From assembly GCA_017644425.1 (NCBI GenBank), contig JAEPLN010000001.1, positions 806,001 to 870,000 on the forward strand: a stretch of DNA of 64,000 nucleotides. Reading direction: 5' to 3'. This DNA is from Prochlorococcus marinus CUG1433. Its GTDB lineage: Bacteria; Cyanobacteriota; Cyanobacteriia; PCC-6307; Cyanobiaceae. How positions within the stretch are numbered: position 1 is the stretch's first letter; the number at the start of each line of letters is the position of its first letter. Positions 19,335 through 22,372 of the stretch are shown in pieces. The position numbers and the translations under genes are program-made. A model generated the notes under the pieces. That model was not told the origin of the DNA. It saw only the letters and a list, made by a program, of their open reading frames with translations, and did not search any database.

Positions 19335-20030
19335 ATGGTCTCAGAAATAAATTTTTTATTAGTAGGCAATAGTAGGCTTCATTGGGCTCAATATTCTAAA
19401 AATCAATCTAAATTCTTCCATACCAAAAAAGAGCAAAAAGTTCCCGAAAATATAGATCTTGATCAATTAATTTGGGCATCTGTAGGAAAACTTCCAAATT
19501 TTTTGCTGAGAAAAGAAAATGAAATAAAAACTAAAGATATCCAATTATCAAATCTTCCTGATTATTTTGGAGTTGATAGAGCTCTTGCTTGTCTCGCAGC
19601 TCTAAGCACTATTGAAAATCCTTTTAAAAAAGATTTGCTAATTACAGATTTTGGAACAATTTTATCGATAACAAAATTAAATTCAAATGGATCGATTCTT
19701 GGTGGTCAACTTGTTCCAGGTTTTCTAACACAATTAAAATCAATGGAACAAAACACAAAAAATCTTAAAGTTCCAGAAAAATTTGAAATCCCTAAAAAAG
19801 ATTTTTTGTTTAATACAGAAGAAGCGATTTTAAAAGGAGTAATCAACTCTCTTAATGGAGTTATTAATAGTTTATTTAATCCCAAAAAGGATATTTTAGT
19901 AATCTGTGGAGGAGACTCTCAATTCCTAACAAAATTTCTAGAAACGAACAAAAAAAATATAATCAATGCTCCTGATTTGGTTATGGAGGGAATGATCATT
20001 CACCACCTTGCCTTAAAAAAATTAGCTTAA
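19335..20030 (+). CDS. coaX: Type III pantothenate kinase
   Basis: First step of CoA synthesis: ATP-dependent phosphorylation of pantothenate. The 231-residue protein has the ASKHA-fold motifs LLVGNSRLHWAQ (phosphate loop), GVDRALACLAA and LITDFGTILSI, and a C-terminal VICGGDSQFL. Type III kinases are not feedback-inhibited by CoA and commonly require a monovalent cation. The first motif replaces the common DxGN with VGNSR, as seems usual in Prochlorococcus homologues. It follows cysH closely and overlaps the 3' end of bcp by 9 bases. Confidence 0.82.
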   Translation: MVSEINFLLVGNSRLHWAQYSKNQSKFFHTKKEQKVPENIDLDQLIWASVGKLPNFLLRKENEIKTKDIQLSNLPDYFGVDRALACLAALSTIENPFKKDLLITDFGTILSITKLNSNGSILGGQLVPGFLTQLKSMEQNTKNLKVPEKFEIPKKDFLFNTEEAILKGVINSLNGVINSLFNPKKDILVICGGDSQFLTKFLETNKKNIINAPDLVMEGMIIHHLALKKLA

Positions 20031-20489
20031 CCCAAGGTCTGCAATTATATGATCAGCCATTATTGCTGCTTTTACTTTTAAGTAAATTTTTTCGATGTTG
20101 CCTTCAGAATCAATCAAAAAAGTATTTCTCATCATTCCCATATATTCTTTTCCCATGAATTTCTTAAGTCCATAGCTATCGTAATCAGAAGAAACTTTAA
20201 AAGGTTCAGGATCAGTTAAAAGAATAAAAGGTAAATTAAATTTTTCTATAAACTTCTGATGAGACGATGCATTATCTTTGCTAATACCAAGCACAACAAT
20301 ATTATTTTTTGTGAGTAAATCATAATTCTCTTTAAAATTACATGCTTCTTTAGTACATCCTGGAGTGTTATCTTTTGGATAAAAATATAATATTATTCTT
20401 TTACCTTTAAAATCACTTAGAGAAACTTCTTTCTCAAAAGAATCTTTTAATTTAAATTCTGGTGCTTTGTCGCCAACCTTAAGAGCCAT
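20022..20489 (-). CDS. bcp: Peroxiredoxin, BCP/PrxQ type
   Basis: A thiol peroxidase of 155 residues when started at MALKVGDKAPEF (20489). An upstream in-frame ATG at 20525 would add twelve unlikely hydrophobic residues. The peroxidatic and resolving cysteines are in TPGCTKEACNF (Cys45 and Cys50), the one-helix spacing of the PrxQ/BCP group. It reduces H2O2 and organic peroxides with electrons from thioredoxin. It converges on coaX. Behind its start lies the decayed phosphopantetheinyl transferase. Confidence 0.9.
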   Translation of the reverse strand: MALKVGDKAPEFKLKDSFEKEVSLSDFKGKRIILYFYPKDNTPGCTKEACNFKENYDLLTKNNIVVLGISKDNASSHQKFIEKFNLPFILLTDPEPFKVSSDYDSYGLKKFMGKEYMGMMRNTFLIDSEGNIEKIYLKVKAAIMADHIIADLGLS

Positions 20490-20521
20490 TGAAATTATTA
20501 AATGAGTATGAATATAAAATA

Positions 20522-21068
20522 CCAAAAATTTGGTTTTATGAGATTAAAGATGTGCAAGATGTCGCAACTACAGAAGAAATTAAACCTGCAGAAAATAATT
20601 TTTAAAACTTTTTGATTTAGAACCCTAGAAATACAATTAATGCTTATCCTTGAGAACCACCAAGTTTAGACTCTGGCATGGACAACATCAGTTTAAATCA
20701 TTGTAAAGATACTATTACTATAGTCTGGCATAAAAGCAAAAATGGGATTGATATTGAGAGAACAGATAGAGATTTTAACCATATAAAATTCCCAGAAAAA
20801 TATTTTTTTATGCCAATAAATCAAACCATAATAATTATTTAAAAAATAAGATCCTAAATAAATGGTTAGTTTTTGAAGCAGCTGTAAAATAGGATCATAG
20901 AAAATTGGCTAAAGACATTTATCATTGGTAATTTTTTTGAAAAGCCCAAATAGTTAATTCATAAGAAGAAAAATATACTCTTAGGTTATTCATAGATTAA
21001 CTTCCATAAGTTTGACTATCGCTTTAGCCTAAGAAGAAAAAACTTCCTTTAATCCTGAGATTATTTGT
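20522..21068 (+). pseudogene. Decayed 4'-phosphopantetheinyl transferase (HetI/Sfp type)
   Basis: Translating the three forward frames piecewise recovers one protein in the correct order. An N-terminal fragment (from 20522) reads PKIWFYEIKDVQDVATTEEI. A short fragment KLFDLEP is followed by a TAG. NAYP is followed by TGA and then EPPSLDSGMDNISLNHCKD. The Mg-binding block reads WHKSKNGIDIERTDRDFNH, then the frame shifts. The last block reads NKILNKWLVFEAAVK, a TAG, then DHRKLAKDIYHW. Weak C-terminal remnants run to the end of rarA. GIDIE and WxxxEAxxK are the two signatures of Sfp-type transferases. There are several stops, at least two frame changes and an apparent deletion between AENNF and KLFDLEP, so no functional protein can be made. 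The enzyme would attach 4'-phosphopantetheine to acyl carrier protein. Confidence 0.85.
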
Positions 21069-22372
21069 TATTCGAAAAATTTTGAGTTTTCTTTTCTTCT
21101 AAGCAGTTCTTCATATTGAGTTTTTTCCCATCCAATATTATTTGGTTCCCATATTTTTAAACCTCTTAAAGATTTGGGAAGATATTCTTGTTCATCCAAA
21201 TTATCTGGATGATTATGCGGGTTGACATAACTATTAGAATTATTTTTTAAATGAAGAGGAACATCAAAAGCTTTGGCAGATTTTATTGTTTCAATTGCTT
21301 TAAAAATACTTTTCGTACTATTACTTTTTGAAGAAATAGCTAAATATAAAGAAGCCTGCGTTAAAAAATATAATCCTTCTGGAAAACCAACTCTATCAAA
21401 AGCATCACAACAGGATTGTACAACCACTATGGCATTAGGATCAGCTATTCCTATATCTTCACTTGCAGTTATAAGTAGTCTTCTAAAAATAAAATTAGGA
21501 TCTTCACCAGCCTCCAGCATATTCGCAAGCCAGAATAAAGTTGCATCTGGATCAGAACCTCTTATGGACTTGATAAAGGCACTTATTACATCGTAATGAT
21601 TTTGCCCATTTTTATCGTAAACAATATTTTTCTTTTGAAGTGCATCCTCTGCTATTGAGAGATTAATGTTGATTTCTTTAACATCATTTTCAGCAGTTGA
21701 TTCTATGGCCATCTCTAGCGCATTGATTAACGTTCTTGCATCTCCGCCAGAAAATTTAATTAAATGACTTATAGCATCTTGAGTTAAATAAACCTTTTTT
21801 GAATCTATTTTTTTAGAATAATGAGTTATGACTTTTTGTATTATTTTCTGCAAATCATTTTCTGCCAAAGGAAATAATTTAAAAATACGAGACCTGCTAA
21901 CAAGCGCTTTATTAACAGCAAAGAAAGGATTTTCAGTTGTAGCACCAATAAAAGTTATAGTTCCATTTTCTATTGAAGGTAATAAAGCATCTTGCTGAAC
22001 TGCTGTAAATCTATGAACCTCATCGATAAATAAAATTGTTTTTCTTTTTGAATTTATTAATCTATCTTTTGCACTAGCGATTTCATTTCTTAATTCTTTA
22101 ACACCCGATAATACTGCATTTAACTTAATTAATTTTGAACGAGTATAAAAGGAAATAATTTCAATTAGAGTAGTTTTACCGACACCAGGAGGGCCAGAAA
22201 AAATAAAATTACTAATCTTATCGTTTAATATTGCACTTCTTAAAAGCGAATTCTCATTCAGGATTGGTTGTTGACCCAAAAAATCCTCCAATTTCTTTGG
22301 TCTTAATTTATCTGCCAAAGGTGCATTGTCTTCTATATGAGAATAATTAGTAAATAAATTTTCTGAATGCAT
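21068..22372 (-). CDS. rarA: Replication-associated recombination protein A (AAA+ ATPase)
   Basis: A 434-residue clamp-loader-like ATPase of the RarA/MgsA/WRNIP1 family, acting at stalled replication forks. It has Walker A GPPGVGKTT (60-68), Walker B ILFIDEVHRF (near 112), sensor 1 TFIGATTENPFF, arginine finger region LVSRSRIFKL, and the C-terminal tetramerisation domain beginning YDVISAFIKSIRGSDPDATL. The length is normal. Its end meets the last remnant of the transferase pseudogene on the opposite strand. Confidence 0.92.
   Translation of the reverse strand: MHSENLFTNYSHIEDNAPLADKLRPKKLEDFLGQQPILNENSLLRSAILNDKISNFIFSGPPGVGKTTLIEIISFYTRSKLIKLNAVLSGVKELRNEIASAKDRLINSKRKTILFIDEVHRFTAVQQDALLPSIENGTITFIGATTENPFFAVNKALVSRSRIFKLFPLAENDLQKIIQKVITHYSKKIDSKKVYLTQDAISHLIKFSGGDARTLINALEMAIESTAENDVKEININLSIAEDALQKKNIVYDKNGQNHYDVISAFIKSIRGSDPDATLFWLANMLEAGEDPNFIFRRLLITASEDIGIADPNAIVVVQSCCDAFDRVGFPEGLYFLTQASLYLAISSKSNSTKSIFKAIETIKSAKAFDVPLHLKNNSNSYVNPHNHPDNLDEQEYLPKSLRGLKIWEPNNIGWEKTQYEELLRRKENSKFFE

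Follow-up and report, generated by a model that had tools for sequence, protein, structure and literature searches.

The window analysed here is a 64,000-nt stretch of the genome of Prochlorococcus marinus CUG1433 (G000; 1.70 Mb in 4 contigs, 100% estimated completeness). Between two genes on the opposite strand, whose names bcp and rarA we take from an earlier note made from the letters of this DNA, it holds the remains of a gene for a HetI/Sfp-type phosphopantetheinyl transferase (PPTase), referred to below as the native PPTase (Table 1). The note had called this interval a pseudogene, and alignment to intact relatives, the indels, the stop codons and the codon profile all confirm it. It had placed the remains at 20522-21068; the actual span is slightly greater, its limits being the equivalents of the likely TTG start and of the stop codon in intact relatives. 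That likely start shares one base with the ATG of bcp. At the other end, rarA encodes 434 aa rather than the 429 aa found in relatives, because one substitution at 21084, in the overlap at 21068-21086, removed the stops of both rarA and the PPTase gene.

Table 1. Features of the bcp-rarA locus in the window, and the second PPTase gene of the same genome
Feature	Position	Strand	Evidence
bcp (peroxiredoxin-like), intact	20022..20489	-	ORF list, alignment
Decayed native Sfp/HetI-type PPTase gene	20489..21086	+	Alignment with intact orthologues, indels, stops, codon-position profile
Junction left by the 55-bp deletion, which shifts the frame close to the N-terminus	20593..20594	+	Comparison with intact relatives
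In-register TGA, at the place of codon 74 in intact genes; seven such stops in all	20651..20653	+	
Well preserved block around the Mg-binding GIDIE motif, still encoding VWHKSKNGIDIERT	20723..20764	+	
Remnant WLVFEAAVK (20863-20889) of the W..(K)EA..K motif, then in-register TAG at 20890	20863..20892	+	
rarA, open	21068..22372	-	ORF list, alignment
Intact second PPTase gene (L094), outside the window	G000:C1:1425493-1426164		Profile A1

Window positions 20401-21191 align at 82% DNA identity, over 853 alignment columns, with the bcp-rarA region of relative G033, where the PPTase gene is intact. Measured against intact relatives, the remnant has deletions of 55, 2, 1 and 3 bp and two insertions of 1 bp each; the 55-bp deletion, close to the N-terminus, and four others of these indels break the frame. 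Seven stop codons stand in register, at window positions 20596, 20651, 20890, 20929, 20951, 20993 and 21030. The note had named three stops, two of which (TGA after NAYP and TAG after EAAVK) are in register, whereas the TAG after KLFDLEP is not. A profile of the genus matches the remnant piecewise, and the main piece holds one TGA, three TAG and three TAA codons. The note had also suggested comparing the interval in close relatives, and this comparison bears it out: 51 of 63 bcp-rarA intervals carry an intact PPTase gene with an open frame of 207 to 231 aa, whereas the longest open frame in the interval of the window is 62 aa.

Constraint on the protein has been lost as well. Non-consensus substitutions at the first, second and third codon positions number 24/19/17 in the remnant, a profile like that of neutral sequence, whereas 43 intact genes average 7.0/4.2/16.1. 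At first- and second-position sites that are invariant in the intact genes the remnant has 22 changes, compared with 0 to 8 in leave-one-out controls. A few of the indels lie near A/T runs, which is the one point in favour of sequencing or assembly error, or of a frame rescued by recoding; we regard either as next to impossible, given six indels including one of 55 bp, seven stops, the neutral profile, the changes at invariant sites and the open genes on both sides. Moreover, eleven other genomes are broken at this locus, and in the six compared lesion by lesion the lesions are mostly different. With several disabling lesions, relaxed constraint and synteny with intact orthologues, the bcp-rarA interval of the window is a real and fairly old pseudogene of the native Sfp/HetI-type PPTase.

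The note had predicted a replacement elsewhere in the genome. Profile A1, built from eight PPTases of the genus, finds in this genome the remnant and one intact PPTase (E 2.7e-65), 0.6 Mb distant on the same 1.56-Mb contig. The prediction thus holds for the gene, and a takeover of the lost job by it would complete the picture. The second enzyme has 223 aa and the motifs SISH, GVDME and WCGLESAIK. Its gene sits in an island among sugar-nucleotide genes (assigned by eye). Upstream of it are genes of methyltransferase and PhyH-like type; downstream are those for a formyltransferase, an acetyltransferase-like and a glyoxalase-like protein, a carrier, an AMP-binding enzyme and a thioesterase-like protein. 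The small carrier protein gene is 2.3 kb away. PF00550 finds two carriers in the whole genome, this one (E 1.6e-4) and AcpP (E 7e-15), the gene of which adjoins a FabF-like gene.

A search of the genome with PF01648, also proposed in the note, returned nothing at E<=1, and so found no AcpS-type protein of about 120 aa that might load AcpP instead; the same search detects an AcpS-type domain in another genome, G004, at 7.9e-12. Because PF01648 also misses the island PPTase, its silence is weak evidence on other enzymes. The impression given by PF01648 alone, that this genome and many relatives have no PPTase, was rejected as a failure of sensitivity; a genus-specific alignment finds the enzymes. 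In many genomes of the genus this model overlooked the PPTase, and annotation pipelines may list the enzyme as absent. Standard family models miss such PPTases, and the empty PF01648 result in the present genome is a warning in this respect.

For the island PPTase, Pfam gives no family at E 0.01 and NCBIfam gives weak PPTase matches (E about 1e-5, far below the cut-off). The natives score similarly weakly, two of them reaching E 8e-5 and 2e-5 against PF01648 (23.1 and 25.3 bits; the cut-off is 25). In the PDB, the combined profile A2 recognises Bacillus Sfp (1qr0/4mrt; E 1.2e-9, positions 47-170). Native PPTases are about 218-220 aa long, and they share the G-D-x-E and W..xE..K motifs with the island copy of G000; both have the length and the Mg-binding residues of Sfp-type enzymes, the frame of the remnant itself being destroyed. 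The putative replacement in this genome is Sfp-type rather than AcpS.

The premise of the note that cyanobacteria generally lack AcpS is too broad, since the accessible part of one report contains eight cyanobacterial AcpS-type sequences (PMC5605751) and G004 has an AcpS-type domain. In that genome the domain forms the C-terminal part of a 230-aa protein (L109:9956-10648), adjoined by an 811-aa ORF that looks by eye like an AMP-ligase. The native Sfp-type PPTase gene of G004 is intact.

We searched all 266 genomes of the genus in the data set with A1, and 218 gave matches, including 82 of the 87 with completeness of 90% or more. Loss of the PPTase was considered for the five unmatched genomes of this completeness and rejected in favour of a presumably unassembled interval, since rarA is missing from four and reaches a contig end in the fifth. 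Among the 218 matching genomes, 191 gave a single strong match and 27 gave either several matches or none with E as low as 1e-75. The 27 were all inspected; 43 native-only loci were inspected individually, the 191 being otherwise counted from the match alone. On this basis, none of the 218 has a broken native and no second PPTase. Beyond the genus, A2 gives matches in 101 of 121 genomes of the family.

The native gene is broken in 12 of the 63 bcp-rarA intervals, and every one of these genomes has another PPTase (G000, G025, G206, G284, G086, G238, G193, G252, G239, G161, G129 and G190). This other enzyme is complete in ten; in G161 its gene runs off the contig, and in the assembly of G238 it has a frameshift. 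Eight of the 51 genomes with an intact native also have an extra copy (G029, G261, G204, G220, G168, G005, G073 and G248). Hence the native is broken in 12/20 genomes with an extra copy and in 0/192 without one (Fisher p 1e-14, not tree-corrected). Set aside before this count were G080 and G074, which have an extra PPTase only and an unassembled interval, G105, G114 and G084, with fragments at contig ends, and G031, which has a foreign N-terminal part and looks chimeric; a second match in G156 (E 0.07) was taken as chance and the genome was counted as native-only. In seven tree-independent pairs, the presence of an extra copy is concordant with a broken native in 5.5 on average, discordant in none and uninformative in 1.5 (median p 0.03).

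The extent of decay varies. In G238 the native gene is deleted, the interval being 189 bp; a large deletion in G252 has reduced the interval to 326 bp; and the native of G284 has two stops and no indel, which may be an early stage of decay or a sequencing error. A 9.6-kb contig of G193 holds two oppositely oriented copies of one PPTase gene (L106, G193:C36, 1519-2124 and 7493-8098), possibly by amplification or as an assembly chimera.

A tree of rarA and bcp from the 63 genomes places ten changes to the broken state on the best tree, at least seven of them forced by the starred branches; the tree search was not optimal, and a grouping of G000 with G190, G193, G025 or G206 is not rejected. Seven pseudogenes of the subclade of G000 can be aligned. 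At sites that are invariant elsewhere they share about as many substitutions as chance would give, and no indels fall in identical columns among the seven, the 1-bp deletions of G206 and G193 lying one column apart. Stop codons 168 and 189 are common to G000 and G193, and stop codon 74 to G000 and G206. Because of these shared stops and near-adjacent deletions, some losses could be older and shared. We conclude that the native PPTase has been lost multiple times, at least seven on the starred branches. The core copy has been lost repeatedly, and only where another copy is present, although the shared stops blur the count of losses.

The native enzymes also have a peculiarity of their own. The lysine of the KEA motif is absent from all 84 distinct native sequences with the motif, replaced by V in 68, I in 15 and L in 1 (two further native sequences gave no match to the motif), whereas it is present in 73/76 other members of the family and in 22/23 extra PPTases. 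The sole exception among the extra enzymes is the island copy of G000, with L at this position, so that neither it nor the natives have the canonical W/KEA lysine.

The extra PPTases are a diverse set. Compared with the enzyme of G206 they are 33 to 50% identical, apart from two at 74 and 78%. In a tree of 52 PPTases, in which bootstrap values are unsettled and some long branches meet, the island copy of G000 is a deep, long-branched sister of the native clade of the genus, grouping with 12 native sequences at 100/100. The other 20 extra enzymes lie outside the native clade, mostly not separated from enzymes of other genera of the family. The label 'extra' changes three times on this tree, two of the changes being forced, which does not fix the number of separate origins. 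In most genomes the extra enzyme is outside the native clade and was probably acquired by transfer. No PPTase source was found among viral contigs searched with A2, and a narrow, pattern-based query of GTDB contigs found no close donor or relative of the G000 enzyme. A second scan of GTDB contigs, with A3, kept 80 of 336 confirmed loci, mostly from Prochlorococcus. One contig in it, filed under a Phycisphaerae MAG (L294, PAFA01000091.1), encodes a PPTase 35% identical to the query of the A3 scan; its assignment is possibly a binning contamination.

The placement of the G000 copy raises another possibility for this genome, that its second PPTase is a fast-evolving offshoot of the native lineage, duplicated long ago or relocated, or comes from an unsampled sister lineage; in either case it would still have displaced the core copy. 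We consider this a serious but minority possibility. The grouping with the natives speaks for it, as does the fact that this copy alone among the 23 extra-type sequences shares their lack of the KEA lysine. On the other side, it is only 40-43% identical to the natives and on a long branch, it lies in a glycan island with a carrier cassette of its own, and it has neither a partner among the other 20 extra PPTases nor a relative in the narrow GTDB query.

Two pairs of genomes resemble states before and after loss of the native. The island enzymes of G204 (both genes intact) and G206 (native broken) are 78% identical in amino acids, and those of G261 (both intact) and G025 (native broken) are 55% identical. 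Related pairs of extra enzymes have dN/dS of about 0.27 to 0.42, and this excess of silent over replacement change suggests purifying selection on them.

Carrier proteins accompany many of the extra enzymes. In 10/20 genomes the extra PPTase has, no more than 10 kb away, a PF00550 match other than AcpP, in some cases below the Pfam cut-off, compared with any second carrier at all in 1/32 native-only controls (Fisher p 1e-4; the 10-kb distance was chosen post hoc). The carriers of G284 and G086 are 7 and 9 kb away. No nearby carrier was seen in 5 of the 12 broken genomes (G238, G193, G252, G129 and G190), where some contigs are short. In G206 a KASIII gene adjoins the extra PPTase, and there is a carrier-like ORF of 80 aa that escapes PF00550; KASIII-like neighbours are seen by eye in G080 and G238 and are absent in G204, despite the same type of enzyme as in G206.

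These data are consistent with a model in which the native PPTase is dead and its essential task, the transfer of 4'-phosphopantetheine to the fatty-acid carrier AcpP, has been taken over by the island Sfp-type PPTase of the same contig, which we consider very probable. The native gene has decayed, the genome has one other PPTase with catalytic motifs, a carrier and an AMP-binding enzyme are encoded near it, and the pattern recurs across the genus. That the island enzyme performs the lost function would follow by analogy from the essentiality of the PPTase in Synechocystis, where efforts to remove the sole known PPTase gene were unsuccessful (PMC5605751). As no other loader is recognised, AcpP has to be served by the island PPTase, barring an enzyme that escapes recognition. 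A PPTase arriving with a carrier-protein cassette would also load AcpP; with both enzymes present the native would be redundant and would decay by mutation in a streamlined genome, and the island copy would be kept because its own carrier needs it. Consistent with this, three foreign Sfp-type PPTases could each replace the native one of Synechocystis, with growth like that of the wild type (PMC5605751). An earlier report, as cited in the accessible part of that paper, found the Synechocystis PPTase to be narrow in its carriers, which counts against the model.

The island enzyme has its own client in the nearby carrier, and might serve that carrier only, AcpP being loaded by an unrelated, unrecognised enzyme. 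We judge this very unlikely, since it leaves unexplained why the native is broken only where another PPTase exists. In addition, PF01648 finds no other loader in G000 at E<=1, a weak point as the model misses the island enzyme too, and several cyanobacterial Sfp-type enzymes load many carriers according to the part of the report available (PMC5605751).

A takeover by the island enzyme could also have been driven by selection rather than by redundancy. Judging from the sequences, the missing KEA lysine may make the native enzyme easy to replace, and a weakened native could have given way to acquired enzymes that restore the motif. The uniform V, I or L of the natives against the lysine of the other family members and extra enzymes would fit this, as would the few decayed extra copies (the frameshifted one of G238 and possibly the weak match in G156) against 12 decayed natives. 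We nevertheless find selection an improbable driver, since the replacement in G000 itself lacks the lysine. Furthermore, natives keep the D, E and E equivalent to the Mg-binding residues of Sfp, and about 190 genomes of the genus seem to live on the native PPTase alone. The Mg ligands of Sfp are D107, E109 and E151 in the available text of one source, and the KEA lysine is not among them (PMC4103896). A fuller version, which we hold to be similarly doubtful, is that a native both weakened and narrow ceded its housekeeping role to an island bringing a canonical PPTase with a cassette, so that a phage-selected island would have become indispensable and later exchanges would have to bring a PPTase with them.

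Prochlorococcus is one of the most abundant photosynthetic genera. In it, genes that are mostly in variable islands appear to have taken over an essential step of lipid synthesis from a core locus, at least seven times on the best-supported branches; if true, a nominally flexible island becomes indispensable. Intermediate stages of gene displacement can be seen within one genus, which makes it a natural test case for the takeover of fatty-acid synthesis by promiscuous PPTases. In the literature covered (titles and abstract openings, with few subscription papers), no loss or replacement of a PPTase is reported for Prochlorococcus. Displacement itself is known, and what is new is the apparent repeated move of an essential function to variable islands, with intermediates visible.

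The PPTases described here resemble HetI of Nostoc, Sppt of Synechocystis and the Sfp-type (group II) enzymes in length and in the GIDIE and E..K motifs. NCBIfam HetI is among their best weak matches; they fall far short of its cut-off and score near or under that of Pfam. Unlike the Sfp-type family, the native genes of the genus lack the KEA lysine. Xenologous or non-orthologous gene displacement, in which a transferred gene takes over a core function, is a well-known concept, and the hypervariable genomic islands of Prochlorococcus, with their surface-polysaccharide genes, are usually described as flexible and dispensable. The island of G000 is like these in its sugar-nucleotide and glycan genes (by eye) and its strain-specific content, but unlike the usual dispensable islands it seems to carry an essential housekeeping gene. 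Xenologs have been reported in islands of S. elongatus, and cases of that type, as far as the accessible text describes them, concern islands in general or replacement in place (PMC3025956); here the core copy decays, the function enters a variable island and intermediates are visible. The closest parallel is the engineered replacement in Synechocystis, in which a single essential PPTase likewise gave way to a foreign Sfp-type enzyme with normal growth (PMC5605751). That was a direct substitution in the laboratory under a strong promoter, whereas the replacement in Prochlorococcus is natural, at another locus, passes through a two-gene stage and is repeated.
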